Below, in pieces: positions 579 to 6,059 of a stretch of 6,059 nucleotides of DNA. Source of the stretch: Deltaproteobacteria bacterium RIFOXYA12_FULL_61_11 (lineage in GTDB: Bacteria; Bdellovibrionota_F; JAHFAK01; YA12-FULL-61-11); contig MGSU01000273.1 in NCBI GenBank assembly GCA_001799195.1, forward strand, positions 1-6,059, given 5' to 3'. The stretch's first letter is position 1; each line of letters begins with the position of its first letter. The position numbers and the translations under genes are program-made. A model generated the notes under the pieces. The model did not search any database, was not told the origin of the DNA, and was given only the letters and a program-made list of their open reading frames with translations.

Positions 579-2891
579 TCACCGTATCGCGCTCCGGGTG
601 ATGAAGCTCGGACGGAAGAGTGTGATGAGGGCGGGGAGGAGGAAGAGGGCGCCGAGCATGCTGACGACCATCCAGAAGACAAGTAGGAAACCCATTTCCG
701 CCTGGAACCGCAGGAAACTGAAGTTCCAGAAGGCCACTCCGGCTACCATGGTGGCGGCGGTGAAGGTGACGGCCTTGCCCGCGGTGCGGAGGGCCACGGA
801 GACCGCGAGGTCGAGGTCGGCGCAGCGTTGGTATTCTTCTTTGATCCTGTCGACGATGTAGAGACCATAGTCCACACCTAGGCCCACGCCCAGGGCGACG
901 ACGGGCAGCGCATTGATGTCGAGGCCTATTCCCCTGGCTCCCATGAGGGCATAGGTGAGGTAGTTGGACAGGATCAAGGGGACCATGAACAGCAGCCCGG
1001 CCACGATTGAGCGATAGGCCAAGCCGCAGAAGAGGAAGACGATCGAGAAAGCCAAGACCGTGATCTTAGCCTGGTGCCAGGTGATGACCTCGTTGACCGC
1101 GGCGAGGAGGCCGCCGAAGCCCCCGGCCAGGCGGAAGCGGGCTTTTTCCAGAGTGTGGGTTCCAATAAAATCCTGGGCCGCGGCGATCACCTTGCGCAGC
1201 GTCTCGCCGCGATGGTCGCGCAGGTACAAGGTGATATTGGCGTTCTGGCTGTCGATGGTCACGAAGCGTCCGAGATCCCCGGGTTCGCTCGAGCTGTAGA
1301 TCATTTCCAGGTAGAAACCGCTCTCAGCGGGATCGTCCGGCACGAGTTCCCACTTCGGAAAGCCCCCGTGCAGGGTGGCGATGATGCCGGGCAGCAGATC
1401 CGCCAGCGAACTGGTTCCCGTGACTTCGGGAAGCCGTTCCATATGTCGTTGGAACGCCTCCATGGTCAGCAAGACCCGGGGATCCTTGATCGCCTCGCGG
1501 GTCTCGCCCTCGACTACCACGCTCAGGAGCTCTGTCTTGCCGAAGCGCTCGGCAATGGCGGCGGTGGCGCGGTTGTAGGGGGAATCCGGCCACAAGAGAG
1601 GGGTTCCGGGATGGACGTCCCCGACCTCGAGGTTGCTGGCGAAATAATAACCGCCGATCAGCAGGACCGAGGTGACGGTGAGGACCACGTACCTGGACCG
1701 TCCGCGGCTCACCCCCGCGATCGCGCCGTGCAACCGGTCGAAGATCGTGTTTTTCGAGACGGCACGGGAGGGTGGCGGAAGGATCGAGAGCAAGAGGGGG
1801 TTGAGGATCAAGTCGCTGACCAGGATCGAAAGCACCCAGAAGCTGCCGAGCAGAGCCAGTTTCTGCAACAGGGGTATGGGAGTGAGCAGGACCAGGGCGA
1901 CACCGATCGCGTCCGTGAGGATAGAAACCAAACCCGGCGTGAACAATCCCTTGAACGTGGCGACCGCGGCGCGGTCTCGATCGCCGTGTTTCCTGAATTC
2001 CTCGAGATAGCGTTCGACCAGTTGCACCGAATGGCTGAGGGCCCGCGCGCTGATGATGAAGGGTACGACGATGACCAGGGGGTCGAAATTGCAGTCGAGC
2101 AGGGCGAGGAAGCCGAGTCCCCACAACGCAGACACGGCCGCTGTGCAGAGGGGGACCAGCACGCCGCGTAGGTCGCGGAAGTAGAGTACGAGGACGAGCA
2201 CGATAGCCAACAAGGTGTACAGGAAGAGACGCTGGACTTGGGGGTACTGTTGCAGGATCCAACCGAGCATGACCGGCCGTCCGATCATGGAGAGGTGCAG
2301 GTGTTCGTTTGTCTCCGCTGTCACGATCTTTTCGAGTTCGGCGTACACCAGGGGGACGTCGAGGCGATCTTCGAAGAAGCCTGCCAGGATCAAGGCGGCG
2401 CGGAGGTCCTCGGAGACCAGGGTGCCGTAATAGCGCGGTGAGGACACGAGTTGTTCGCGTACGGCGGCGAGCTCCGCCTCGCTCTCGGGTATCTCGGGCC
2501 ACATGATCGGAGTAGCGAGGAAGCCTCGGTGTTCGTCCACGTCAAGGCGTTTGACCTTGCGTTGGGCGATGGACAAGACCTGGTAGTTGTTGATGCCCGG
2601 TAGCAGCTCCAGGGCCCGGGTGATGCGTTGGATGGCCTGCAGGACTTCTTTACGGAAGATATCGCCCTCATCGACCTCGACCTGGATCATCACGGTCGAG
2701 GCTCCGCCGAAGATGTCTTTGTATCCGATGAAGGTTTCGACGAAGGGATGATCGGAGGGGAAGAGATCGATGATCGGGCTGTCCACCCGCAGGTGGAGGG
2801 TTTTCCAACCGAAAAAAACGGTCAGGACCGTGATCAGGAGCAAGACGTAGGTACGCCTGCGGAGCAGGAAGAGGGCGAGACGTTGGGCCAT
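579..2891 (-). CDS. MMPL/RND-superfamily inner-membrane transporter
   Basis: This is a predicted proton-driven pump of the RND superfamily (MMPL/HAE3-like branch), about 770 residues. Residues are numbered from the upstream ATG at 2897. The architecture is two repeats: TM1 (about 17-33), a periplasmic loop (34-222), TM2-TM6 (about 223-372), then TM7 (402-420), a second loop (421-608) and TM8-TM12 (about 611-761). TM10 carries the family motif Gly-Val-Asp-Tyr-Gly-Leu followed by Val-Asp-Arg, with Asp676-Tyr677 as the expected proton relay. The matching site in TM4 is Ser288-His289. There is no duckbill-sized loop or long N-terminal helix like that of AcrB. The stop of the propeller gene overlaps the ATG at 2897 (ATGA), but GGGGAG (2903-2898) abuts that ATG. 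It sits 6 bases before the ATG at 2891, so I chose 2891; 2897 remains possible. The gene is last in the operon. Substrate unknown; a lipid or other hydrophobic molecule is inferred from the family and neighbours. Confidence 0.93.
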   Translation of the reverse strand: MAQRLALFLLRRRTYVLLLITVLTVFFGWKTLHLRVDSPIIDLFPSDHPFVETFIGYKDIFGGASTVMIQVEVDEGDIFRKEVLQAIQRITRALELLPGINNYQVLSIAQRKVKRLDVDEHRGFLATPIMWPEIPESEAELAAVREQLVSSPRYYGTLVSEDLRAALILAGFFEDRLDVPLVYAELEKIVTAETNEHLHLSMIGRPVMLGWILQQYPQVQRLFLYTLLAIVLVLVLYFRDLRGVLVPLCTAAVSALWGLGFLALLDCNFDPLVIVVPFIISARALSHSVQLVERYLEEFRKHGDRDRAAVATFKGLFTPGLVSILTDAIGVALVLLTPIPLLQKLALLGSFWVLSILVSDLILNPLLLSILPPPSRAVSKNTIFDRLHGAIAGVSRGRSRYVVLTVTSVLLIGGYYFASNLEVGDVHPGTPLLWPDSPYNRATAAIAERFGKTELLSVVVEGETREAIKDPRVLLTMEAFQRHMERLPEVTGTSSLADLLPGIIATLHGGFPKWELVPDDPAESGFYLEMIYSSSEPGDLGRFVTIDSQNANITLYLRDHRGETLRKVIAAAQDFIGTHTLEKARFRLAGGFGGLLAAVNEVITWHQAKITVLAFSIVFLFCGLAYRSIVAGLLFMVPLILSNYLTYALMGARGIGLDINALPVVALGVGLGVDYGLYIVDRIKEEYQRCADLDLAVSVALRTAGKAVTFTAATMVAGVAFWNFSFLRFQAEMGFLLVFWMVVSMLGALFLLPALITLFRPSFITRSAIR

Positions 2892-2893
2892 GT

Positions 2894-3856
2894 TCATCTC
2901 CCCGACAGGCGGTCGAAGGACTGTGCCGGAAGGATGCGACGCAGGAGGTTGCCCCGGTCACCGGCGAGGAACTGATGTCCCGAGGGGAGGACCAGAACGG
3001 TCGAGAGCCAGGTGTGGAGCGGTAGGCGTTCGACAAGGGGGGAGCCTCCGGACGGCAGGGTGACCAGGGTGCCGTTCCCTCCGACGGCGACCAGGGTTCC
3101 TTCCCCCCCGAGGTGGAGGGCGAAGAGGTGTTCGGTGGTCCCGGTCGAACGGGGTAACCAGTGCTCGCCTCCATCCTCGGTGAGGAGCACGGTACCCTCG
3201 GCCCCGACCGCGGCACCGTGAAGAGGATCGGAGAAAGCCACGGCATAGAGGGAGCGTTGCAGGGGGAGTTGGACAGCGGACCAGGTAGTTCCTCCGTCAC
3301 GGCTGCGCTGGAGGGTGCCGAGTTCCCCGACCACGAACGCGAGTTCAGGGGTCACGAAGGTCACGTCGTGGAGGCCGGGTTCGTCCAGTGCTTCCTCAGG
3401 GAGTTGCAGTGCTCGCCGTTGCCAGGTCTTGCCGTGATCGAGGCTCTGCAGCAGGGTGGCGAAGTGCCCCACCGCCAGGGCGCGTCCATCGGGTAAGGCT
3501 GCGACCCCGAAGAGGGGCTGGGTTGCCCCGCTCTCGATCCTCTCCCAATGGTCTCCGCCGTCTTCGGTTCGCAGCACCAGCCCGGGTCTGCCAACGATCA
3601 GGCCTCGCCGTTCATCGACGAAATTCACGGCCAGGAGAGGTTCGGTGACCCCGGGGGTCAGCAAGGAAAAGCTGTAACCGCCATCGTCCGAGCGCAGCAC
3701 CAACCCGGGATGGCCGACCACCCAGATCCGCGAGCCTCGTCCGCACAAGTCGAAGAGTTTGTCGCGGTGATCGAGGTCGGCCAGGGGAGAGGCCGAGAGC
3801 CGGCCCTGACCGAGGAACAAGACCAGGAGTGTCGTGAAGATCAGAGCCGCTTTCAT
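2894..3856 (-). CDS. Secreted YCF48/BNR-type seven-repeat beta-propeller protein
   Basis: The protein has 320 residues. A signal peptide occupies about 1-22 (Lys2, a hydrophobic core at 4-15, a likely cut after Leu-Ser-Ala at 20-22), so it should be periplasmic. The mature part is almost all repeats. A strand of the type Val-Gly-x-x-Gly-x-Leu-x-Arg recurs seven times, near residues 46, 87, 128, 175, 216, 257 and 297. Five copies are followed by a BNR/Asp-box-like turn (for example Asp-Gly-Gly-x-x-Trp at 99-104, 187-192 and 228-233; the first copy ends in Phe63). This fits a seven-bladed propeller of the YCF48/HCF136-like family. That family is named for photosystem II assembly, but the fold is a general binding scaffold and nothing photosynthetic is present here. 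The ATG overlaps the DUF1329 stop (ATGA at 3856-3853), and only a weak ribosome binding site is visible, which points to translational coupling. It may help assemble or bridge the pump and its periplasmic partner; that role is inferred. Confidence 0.9.
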   Translation of the reverse strand: MKAALIFTTLLVLFLGQGRLSASPLADLDHRDKLFDLCGRGSRIWVVGHPGLVLRSDDGGYSFSLLTPGVTEPLLAVNFVDERRGLIVGRPGLVLRTEDGGDHWERIESGATQPLFGVAALPDGRALAVGHFATLLQSLDHGKTWQRRALQLPEEALDEPGLHDVTFVTPELAFVVGELGTLQRSRDGGTTWSAVQLPLQRSLYAVAFSDPLHGAAVGAEGTVLLTEDGGEHWLPRSTGTTEHLFALHLGGEGTLVAVGGNGTLVTLPSGGSPLVERLPLHTWLSTVLVLPSGHQFLAGDRGNLLRRILPAQSFDRLSGR

Positions 3857-5250
3857 CGTCCGCGTTTGCGCAAGGTGGCCAACGTGAACTCACCGGGTTC
3901 CAACCCGAGATTGCTCTTGGAGACATAGACCGGGAAAGCGGTGGCATGTTCGCTCTGCAGGTCCACCACCAGGCTCGCACAATACACCGGTGGGTGGGTG
4001 TCCTCGTCGGGAGATTGGTTGAAGCCGTTGATCAGGACCTTCCAGAGTTCGCCTTTCTTGTCGTAGGTTTCTTTGTAGGCGATGAGGAAGGTCTCGGCGT
4101 CGACATAGATGAGTTGGCGGGAATAGGGATAATCCGCCAGCTTCGGAGTGACCTCGAGTAGATACGTCGGCCGCAATTCCCAGTTACACGTGAGGTTCCA
4201 ATAGGGTTTGGTGCGGAAATCAAAGGTTTTATCGGCGTACTCCTTGCCCAGGCCAATACCCGCGTGCATGGGTGCCAGGCGGGTTTCCTTGCCCAGGAGC
4301 TTCCAGTTCATCCACTCCGGGTAGCCCATGAAACCCCGGACGTCCTCGTAGAGCATGTCGGTGGAGTTCCAGGTATCCCCGCGGGTGCCGAAGGTGTTGC
4401 GCAGTACCCTCCTCATAGCCGGGACGTAGATGTGCCCCTGCTGGTCGAGCGGGTCCACGCTGCGGCTGTAGAGGGCACCGAAGCCCTTCTTGTCATAGGG
4501 AGAGAGCGCGTAGGTGAGCGAAGTGTACTGGATGTTTTCCTTGAGGAACGCATCGATCGCGGGTTTGGGCGGCAGGTCGGTGCGATTGACGGTGCGGCAG
4601 ATGAAAGCCCAGCGCCATTCCTCGGTGTGTTCTACTCCGCGGGCGGACGAGACCCACTTGACCGCGTAATACGAATCGCCGTCGTCTCCGATGTAACAGT
4701 ACTGGTAGTTCCAGGCCGCTTCCAGGCCGTTCTTGGGTTGGGGAAAGGGCAATCCGGCGACGTATCCGTCCAGGCCGCGTTTGCGTACCTCCTTCCCGGT
4801 CTCGATCAGTTTTGCCTTGCCGGCGTGGGCAGTGGTCGCCTCGAGGTACCCGCGCGAGGGATGGATGGGCTTGTAGGCCACGATGGGGAGGCGGAGCCCG
4901 TGGCGTTCAATCAGGTTTCGGAGGCCTTTTGCAAGAAAACTGCTGTGTGCACCGGAGGTTGCCCTATCCAGGGTGGTCCCGACGAGTTTGGGTTCGGCCG
5001 AGAGGTCGGGCCGGAACCCCGCAAGGTCGGTCCAGTTCTTCGCGGTCATCGTCGTGCCCGGTTTCCAACGCGGGGCTTCTGGTGCGATCGGGGGAGGCGG
5101 TGCCGGGGGGGCGGGTTGCCCAACCGCAGCAGGAGGAGTCGTCGGGGCGGGGAGGGATTGCTCTTCCGGCGGAGGGACAGGGAGAGGAACCTCTTGGGCA
5201 GAGAGCAGGGAACAGTAAGCACTGCAGAGCAGCAGGAGCAAGGTTCGCAT
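3853..5250 (-). CDS. DUF1329 family periplasmic protein with proline-rich linker
   Basis: The protein has 465 residues from the ATG at 5250. This start is chosen over the GTG at 5265 because GGAGG (5263-5259) lies 8 bases before the ATG and covers the GTG-side codons. A signal peptide spans 1-18, with cleavage expected after Leu-Ser-Ala. Next comes a linker with 18 prolines in residues 21-60, then the DUF1329 domain from about 61 to the end. Family landmarks are Gly-Leu-Pro-Phe-Pro (166-170), Pro-Ala-Met-Arg-Arg (277-281), Trp-Glu-Leu-Arg-Pro (357-361) and Tyr-Ser-Arg followed by Tyr-Val-Asp (376-384). DUF1329 has no settled function. From memory it is considered related to the LolA/LolB half-barrel fold, which binds acyl chains; that link should be verified. 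It is encoded between an outer-membrane barrel and a propeller/pump pair, which suits a carrier or adaptor between membranes. Four cysteines remain in the mature protein (185, 218, 355, 424), so disulfides are possible. The family call is firm; the role is inferred. Confidence 0.9.
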   Translation of the reverse strand: MRTLLLLLCSAYCSLLSAQEVPLPVPPPEEQSLPAPTTPPAAVGQPAPPAPPPPIAPEAPRWKPGTTMTAKNWTDLAGFRPDLSAEPKLVGTTLDRATSGAHSSFLAKGLRNLIERHGLRLPIVAYKPIHPSRGYLEATTAHAGKAKLIETGKEVRKRGLDGYVAGLPFPQPKNGLEAAWNYQYCYIGDDGDSYYAVKWVSSARGVEHTEEWRWAFICRTVNRTDLPPKPAIDAFLKENIQYTSLTYALSPYDKKGFGALYSRSVDPLDQQGHIYVPAMRRVLRNTFGTRGDTWNSTDMLYEDVRGFMGYPEWMNWKLLGKETRLAPMHAGIGLGKEYADKTFDFRTKPYWNLTCNWELRPTYLLEVTPKLADYPYSRQLIYVDAETFLIAYKETYDKKGELWKVLINGFNQSPDEDTHPPVYCASLVVDLQSEHATAFPVYVSKSNLGLEPGEFTLATLRKRGR

Positions 5251-5253
5251 GAT

Positions 5254-5263
5254 GATCACCTCC
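5254..5263 (-). promoter_or_regulatory. Extended Shine-Dalgarno site of the DUF1329 gene
   Basis: On the minus strand the ten bases GGAGGTGATC are the exact complement of the conserved 16S rRNA tail GATCACCTCC. The GGAGG core is 8 bases from the ATG at 5250. Most sites match only 4 to 6 bases, so this one predicts efficient initiation within the operon mRNA. It also rules against the upstream in-frame GTG at 5265 as the start. Confidence 0.8.
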
Positions 5264-5317
5264 ACGGAAGAAGCTGTTGTCGGGTATCCGGTTTCGAATC
5301 CTCCGGCCTTGCGGAAG

Positions 5318-6059
5318 TCAGAATTGGCACTGAGCGGTCAGGTTCACCTCGTCGCGATCCCGGAACAGACCGACCCCCTGGTAGGGATCGGCGCCGAAGA
5401 AGTCGATCGCGGTGAGGTTGAGGCGCCAGGTATCGTACAGCCGGATGCCCAGACCGAGATTGAGGAACCCGCTCCGAGGGGAAACATAGGCGCCGATGAG
5501 TTTGGGAGCGAGGAGACCGTGAAAATAGGTCGTGGTCATGGCACCGATCGCCTTCCAGGAGTGGGTCCGCACCGTGTATTCGTTGTACCCCGGGATTTCC
5601 ACCAGATCGCTCTTCTCCACGTCGCTCAGCCCTGGAACCACGGTGTGCATCCATTGCGCGACGAGCAGGAAGTTCTGGGTCGGGTTGAGCCAGCGCAGCA
5701 TGGTCGGACGCATCAGCACCACCGCATAACTCGCCGCCAGTTTCTCGGCCGTATCGAAACGGTAGCGTTCGATACCAGCACCGTAGTCCTTGTCCAAGGC
5801 CTTGGAGGCCGTCCCGGACTGCCGTGGGAAGGTGCGGTCGGGTTCGATGGCCGTCTCGAGCTTGGCCACCATGCCAATCGGATTGTCGAAGGTGTAGTCC
5901 ACCGTGAAACCGGCGATGTGTTGCCTGGGAAACCCGAGGTAGAGGGTTTCCATGCGGGTATTGTCGACGAAGCCCATTTTCGCGTTGAGCACCTTGAGGT
6001 CGTAATAGAGGGGCACCGGCGGGGACATCTGGTGGGTGTAATAGTACACCAGGGAATAG
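5318..6059 (-). CDS. DUF1302-like outer-membrane beta-barrel protein (C-terminal part)
   Basis: The reading frame is open to the right edge, so the start is outside the window; 246 residues and the stop are visible. The GTG at 6049 is only an internal Val codon. The visible part has alternating polar/hydrophobic strands rich in Tyr, Trp, Phe and Gly, with charged turns. Segments near Pro-Arg-Gln-His and Phe-Thr-Val-Asp-Tyr look like paired barrel strands, followed by a fatty-acid-porin-like stretch with Trp and Asn-Pro-Thr-Gln-Asn. The chain ends in Gln-Cys-Gln-Phe; a terminal Phe is the usual signal for the BAM assembly machinery. Size, composition and the DUF1329 gene directly downstream (51 bases after the stop) point to DUF1302, normally about 550-650 residues. 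The C-terminal portion of DUF1302 is less distinctive than the N-terminal part, so another outer-membrane channel family is possible. It probably serves as the outer-membrane end of the system encoded by the next three genes. Confidence 0.75.
   Translation of the reverse strand, partial: YSLVYYYTHQMSPPVPLYYDLKVLNAKMGFVDNTRMETLYLGFPRQHIAGFTVDYTFDNPIGMVAKLETAIEPDRTFPRQSGTASKALDKDYGAGIERYRFDTAEKLAASYAVVLMRPTMLRWLNPTQNFLLVAQWMHTVVPGLSDVEKSDLVEIPGYNEYTVRTHSWKAIGAMTTTYFHGLLAPKLIGAYVSPRSGFLNLGLGIRLYDTWRLNLTAIDFFGADPYQGVGLFRDRDEVNLTAQCQF

Follow-up and report, generated by a model that had tools for sequence, protein, structure and literature searches.

A probable five-gene variant of the AmeABCD transporter operon in a Deltaproteobacteria genome

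Described systems closest to the operon

Envelope transfer of water-insoluble molecules is little known beyond the Lol, Lpt and Mla systems. A transporter type for hydrophobic compounds has been described in Castellaniella defragrans, where AmeABCD, called a tetrapartite exporter by its authors, consists of a DUF1302 protein, a DUF1329 protein of the LolA superfamily, a YCF48-type protein and an RND pump of the HAE3 type (PMC6394551). Growth of ame deletion mutants on limonene and other monoterpene hydrocarbons is poor, and when de-energized with CCCP the mutants show slightly raised Nile Red uptake (PMC6394551). We consider the Nile Red result to be modest evidence for export, and the growth phenotypes would fit uptake too. 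The operon described here is of this known but little-studied kind, with the same four families in identical order on a single strand. It differs from AmeABCD in an added lipoprotein gene, in a pump from a separate RND clade, and in having no monoterpene island on its own contigs. The family as a whole brings together a pump of the RND type, a shuttle with a LolA fold, a propeller and a barrel, but no fusion protein.

In P. putida the same four families are encoded by two separate gene pairs, PP_0765/PP_0766 and PP_2018/PP_2019, which have a Tween 20 phenotype in common; AlphaFold co-folding, carried out with the P. putida proteins and not with those of the present lineage, predicted a strong contact between the RND and YCF48 proteins and weaker contacts of DUF1329 with the pump and the barrel (PMC10866462). 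No lipoprotein was reported for that set. A nanopod cluster of benzene-degrading Desulfobacterota contains genes for a porin-like protein and for a DUF1329, YCF48 and MMPL set that is highly expressed during benzene degradation (PMC13101534). It has extra universal-stress and hypothetical genes, and a lipoprotein of the family described below was not reported there. A DUF1302 protein has been identified in the outer-membrane fraction of Delftia (PMC3110197).

Other systems are related more loosely. Lol shares a LolA-fold periplasmic carrier, here the DUF1329 protein, whereas the places of LolCDE and LolB are taken here by a pump of the RND type and the DUF1302 barrel, and DUF1329 has an N-terminal extension of about 100 residues; the operon may work like Lol without being a member of it. 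HpnN and MmpL3 belong, like the pump, to the MMPL/HAE3 RND superfamily and share its TM10 Asp-Tyr, but the pump differs in a TM4 Ser-His...Gln and in its linked partner genes. In Marinobacter, AupAB, an outer-membrane barrel with an inner partner, takes up alkanes (PMC5989066); it was considered as a homolog and dropped. AupA is FadL-like, and the barrel studied here matches DUF1302 only. Pfam searches of the window's proteins found neither the MCE-domain protein and ABC transporter families of Mla nor the membrane-fusion and TolC-type families of HAE1 tripartite efflux (AcrAB-TolC), the latter in agreement with the preliminary description of this DNA.

Gene content of the window and the contig carrying the 5' end

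The window, that is, the whole stretch of DNA that was analyzed (6,059 nucleotides), is one contig (C273) of the source genome from end to end, in an assembly fragmented into 342 contigs. It carries the following features:

5318–6059, minus strand: DUF1302 outer-membrane barrel, AmeA-like, C-terminal 246 residues only and open at the contig edge (PF06980, E 1.1e-7)
3853–5250, minus strand: DUF1329 periplasmic protein, AmeB-like, with signal peptide (PF07044, E 5e-47; PF17131 LolA_like, E 7e-16)
3856–4734, minus strand: LolA-fold domain of the DUF1329 protein, residues 173–465, in an AlphaFold2 model (pLDDT 85)
3853–3856, minus strand: ATGA overlap of the DUF1329 stop and the YCF48 start, read from the sequence
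2894–3856, minus strand: YCF48-type secreted beta-propeller, AmeC-like (PF14870, E 1e-29; solved Ycf48 chains, E 6e-23), assigned as a propeller by similarity to Ycf48
2894–2897, minus strand: ATGA overlap of the YCF48 stop and the RND start, read from the sequence
579–2897, minus strand: RND/MMPL transporter, HAE3 type, AmeD-like (PF03176, E 1.5e-31, two stretches)
2010–2036, minus strand: TM4 motif S288-H289-x-x-Q292-x-x-x-R296 of the pump, with His where TM10 has Asp
858–872, minus strand: TM10 motif D676-Y677...Y680 of the pump, at the usual proton-relay position and aligned with the DY site of MmpL4

The open reading frame calls and Pfam matches thus place DUF1302, DUF1329, YCF48 and an HAE3-like RND pump together on the minus strand, and both ATGA joins are present, as the preliminary description had stated of a same-strand barrel, DUF1329 protein, propeller and pump with the last three genes overlapping. 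The longest DUF1329 reading frame spans 3853–5265, with a GTG start at 5265. The ATG at 5250 is the likelier start, because GGAGGTGATCATC (GGAGGTG) immediately precedes it; this gives a protein of 465 aa and leaves 67 nt between the DUF1302 and DUF1329 genes. An incomplete minus-strand frame at 3–317, located 261 bases downstream of the pump, contains the lipobox LLVACATATGG, has no Pfam match and is probably a separate transcription unit.

Since the contig breaks off within the DUF1302 gene, the 5' end of the set is missing from it. A profile search of the genome's contigs located a lipoprotein gene at C115:8543–9826 (E 9e-63), and 71 bases after it the first 242 residues of a DUF1302 protein (C115:9898–10623), which run off the contig end. 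One DUF1302 protein from a genome of another phylum (G036) matches both contigs, its residues 56–226 corresponding to C115:10141–10623 and its residues 286–554 to the window. Because the halves of this protein match, we infer that C115 and C273 carry one operon split over two contigs; their compared ends do not overlap, and about 50 DUF1302 residues between them are unassembled. The operon would then read lipoprotein, DUF1302, DUF1329, YCF48, RND. For this lineage the earlier count of four genes is wrong, as the lipoprotein gene on C115 heads the operon.

Upstream on C115 lie a radical-SAM gene, a lyase-like gene and proS, hemL and hemC, the last three read from translations. No monoterpene-catabolism island is present on C115, and on the downstream side the contig ends. 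Since the operon sits beside such housekeeping-like genes, its cargo is not readable from its neighbors. Only one DUF1329 gene of this type occurs in the genome. A second pump and LolA-type pair is found on contig C8 (20867–22014), where a PF17131 LolA_like protein (E 5e-54) sits behind an MMPL gene heading toward the contig end (locus L024); the pairing of an RND pump with a LolA-fold protein is thus seen more than once in this genome.

Residues 173–465 of the DUF1329 model align with P. gingivalis LolA3 (9tp6) with a VIA-align Z of 21.2 over 237 residues at 2.7 Å, and the model matches the solved DUF1329 protein 4z48 with a Z of 18.3. Residues of about 70–172 form an extension outside both matches. 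The model thus shows a LolA-fold domain in the DUF1329 protein. The earlier view that the set is different in parts from Lol holds for its RND pump and barrel partners, but not for the DUF1329 protein.

Conservation of the set, transport direction and cargo

We scanned one genome per species across 84,980 species, using a pattern that included the TM4 letters, and obtained 80 related RND loci. Thirty-five loci extend 5 kb or more to both sides of the pump; all three partner families are present in 29 of these and none of them in five (L083, L087, L091, L094 and L102, one gammaproteobacterial clade). The families therefore neighbor each other in other genomes, as had been proposed, and their neighbors do not vary at random. 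The gammaproteobacterial pump clade (L083, L085, L087, L090–L092, L094–L100 and L102) mostly lacks the three partners nearby and includes two tandem pumps at each of L090 and L095. Three of its loci (L092, L098 and L102) are labeled as Klebsiella pneumoniae MAGs; their pumps barely differ from those in other Gammaproteobacteria MAGs, and the labels are probably wrong.

The best NCBIfam match of the pump is TIGR00921 (HAE3) with 184 bits, under the cut-off of 352. With 67.5 bits the pump is also far from passing the HpnN model, whose cut-off is 752, and it scores far under the cut-off of the BstA model; its nearest solved relatives are MmpL3-5 and HpnN. Its identity reaches 68% to Myxococcota copies, compared with 41% to the Aromatoleum plasmid copy and about 40% to Proteobacterial copies. 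H289 and Q292 of TM4 occur in 89/89 aligned rows, and SH..VQ is almost invariant there, a result partly biased by the scan pattern, which contained those letters; on re-checking, 10/10 plasmid copies found by whole-protein similarity have the same His and Gln. The TM10 Asp is present in 88/89 rows and Y680 in 89/89. The TM4 and TM10 sites may pair as a relay.

We consider it likely that the operon encodes a five-gene variant of AmeABCD that carries out proton-driven transfer of a hydrophobic molecule between the inner and outer membrane. The RND pump would take the molecule from the inner membrane, with the YCF48 propeller seated on it as an adaptor that replaces a membrane-fusion protein. The LolA-like half barrel of DUF1329 would receive the molecule and shuttle it through the periplasm to the DUF1302 barrel. 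For the lipoprotein we propose an anchor in the outer membrane, probable binding to the barrel and a role there as receptor, plug or scaffold. The preliminary description had proposed a conduit for a hydrophobic molecule between the two membranes, and this gains support from the conserved set, the LolA fold of DUF1329 and the AmeABCD and P. putida papers. Its statement that the module has no assigned substrate was too strong, given the monoterpene deletion phenotype and proposed efflux of AmeABCD and the catabolic neighbors of the Proteobacterial copies.

Among plasmid copies, the Aromatoleum one adjoins beta-oxidation genes, the P. veronii copy a phenol monooxygenase, and the Methylibium copy an alkane monooxygenase and rubredoxins; other plasmid copies lie near homogentisate dioxygenase, ring-hydroxylating dioxygenases, P450 and similar genes. 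On the Methylibium plasmid (RPME01, 532–549 kb; locus L021), two opposed copies of the cassette, with DUF1329 genes flanking DUF1302, are located near the alkane monooxygenase. The flanking-gene tallies of Proteobacterial loci are led by Old Yellow-type flavin oxidoreductases, thiolases, short-chain dehydrogenases, CoA transferases and sigma-54 regulators. Judged by gene neighborhood, these associations point to hydrocarbons, aromatics and terpenoids as cargo in Proteobacteria. The same tally at Myxococcota-type loci revealed no shared pathway and no catabolic theme, and their cargo may differ from the Proteobacterial one. The cargo would thus be hydrocarbon-like in Proteobacteria, while in the operon's own lineage it need not be a growth substrate. 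A lineage without catabolic neighbors separates the transport function from any single degradation pathway.

Characterized MMPL/HAE3 relatives of the pump move lipids or siderophores outward. On the direction of transport the evidence is divided: these relatives export, yet mutants of the described systems fail on the compound as food. We regard outward transport as somewhat more likely than inward transport.

Two more specific readings were weighed against this background. In the first, the operon would have a housekeeping role and export a lipid of the cell's own envelope (a hopanoid, sterol, glycolipid or other lipid), having evolved apart from the catabolic Ame cassettes. The stand-alone operon with its single DUF1329 gene, the unrelated neighbors, the position of the pump in its own clade, the LolA fold and the distant relation to HpnN are all in line with this reading. 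Its presence is nevertheless patchy, with genome G001 of the same class lacking the set, no adjoining lipid-biosynthesis gene was seen, and the HpnN and BstA scores lie far below their cut-offs; we hold such a dedicated lipid exporter to be tenable, if on the unlikely side.

In the second, the lipoprotein and the barrel would capture an external hydrophobe (an alkane, fatty-acid ester or terpene), DUF1329 would carry it inward, and the RND pump would draw it to or through the inner membrane. Poor growth of mutants on the hydrophobe itself, of ame on monoterpenes and of PP_0765/0766 on Tween 20, argues for uptake, as do the alkane uptake by the analogous AupAB, built from other families, and the catabolic Proteobacterial neighbors. 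Against it stand the exporting relatives of the pump, the Myxococcota-type loci without catabolic genes and the slightly higher Nile Red uptake of ame deletion cells, and we judge an uptake system to be rather unlikely.

A lipoprotein family preceding the barrel gene

An extra open reading frame recurs directly upstream of DUF1302 in the Myxococcota-type loci (L025–L040) and in G036 (L022). An alignment of thirteen copies shows a single family, whose shared features are the motif DTYQFNI, an N-terminal lipobox Cys and two other Cys that never vary. By profile search, the lipoprotein gene precedes DUF1302 in 13/13 Myxococcota-type scan loci with upstream coverage and in G036, and it is found in five further genomes of G036's phylum, making six there. 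The profile gave no match among the 64 other scan loci at E values up to 10. The gene lies on the same strand as the barrel gene, about 8–180 bases before it, and mean identity is about 35% across more than one phylum. In G098, G099 and G102 it is doubled in tandem at the same position, a pattern that G100 and G103 fit. All 19 lipoprotein-bearing rows fall in one RND clade of 22 (SH-aLRT 100), and the remaining three rows end before the lipoprotein position, their upstream sequence being missing.

That the other neighbors are not shared argues against mere conservation of the region. Although the loci are related by descent and the family has members away from the cassette, we find it improbable that the lipoprotein is an unrelated bystander kept nearby only through shared descent of the locus, given its presence in 19/19 covered rows, its retention at this level of divergence with strand and spacing maintained, and its tandem doubling in place. 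Pairwise distances of all five proteins correlate, those of the lipoprotein best with those of the barrel (r 0.82); such correlations are also expected from shared descent, and this one suggests a possible lipoprotein–barrel contact.

Pfam detects at most CarboxypepD_reg in the first half of the lipoprotein, above cut-off in two tested copies, and nothing in the second half; the NCBIfam search found no family, and the profile matched no solved structure by sequence. A model of the L028 copy (pLDDT 82) has two beta-sandwich domains, the first resembling prealbumin/CnaB-type domains. Compared over its whole length, the model comes closest to the C-terminal part of an Archaeoglobus fulgidus lipase (Z 11, 172 residues, 3.6 Å), a hint at lipid contact that shows no function. 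The FadL, TodX and lipase entries in the fold lists serve as hints only, their scores being middling or confined to one domain.

New with respect to the described systems are the lineage-specific fifth subunit, for which neither Pfam nor NCBIfam has a dedicated family, and the lineage-wide TM4 signature. This conserved subunit and the unusual signature provide a gene and residues that are open to testing. More tentatively, and with a probability we consider low, Myxococcota and the other phylum could have combined the gain of an obligate outer-membrane lipoprotein subunit, from an undescribed two-domain family, with an endogenous or scavenged lipid instead of a growth substrate as cargo and an asymmetric His(TM4)/Asp-Tyr(TM10) relay unlike that of MmpL3. 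The lipoprotein would then possibly be a lipid-capturing or plugging receptor, as the modeled lipase C-terminal fold would allow.

The family is multi-copy in G036's phylum (G098, G099, G100 and G103), with up to 13 matches in G098; some of these matches lie away from the cassette, in open frames longer than 1,000 residues. In the source genome, a weak match on contig C342 was rejected as a second copy, as it sits in a TonB-receptor-like protein. The lipoprotein on C115 (8543–9826; locus L117) is extended at its N-terminus by a long stretch that contains several Cys and a TDPSDDPATT repeat linker and is absent from its shorter relatives. In G036, a multi-haem cytochrome gene (L022:7615–9123) precedes the lipoprotein gene, an arrangement not noticed at the other loci.
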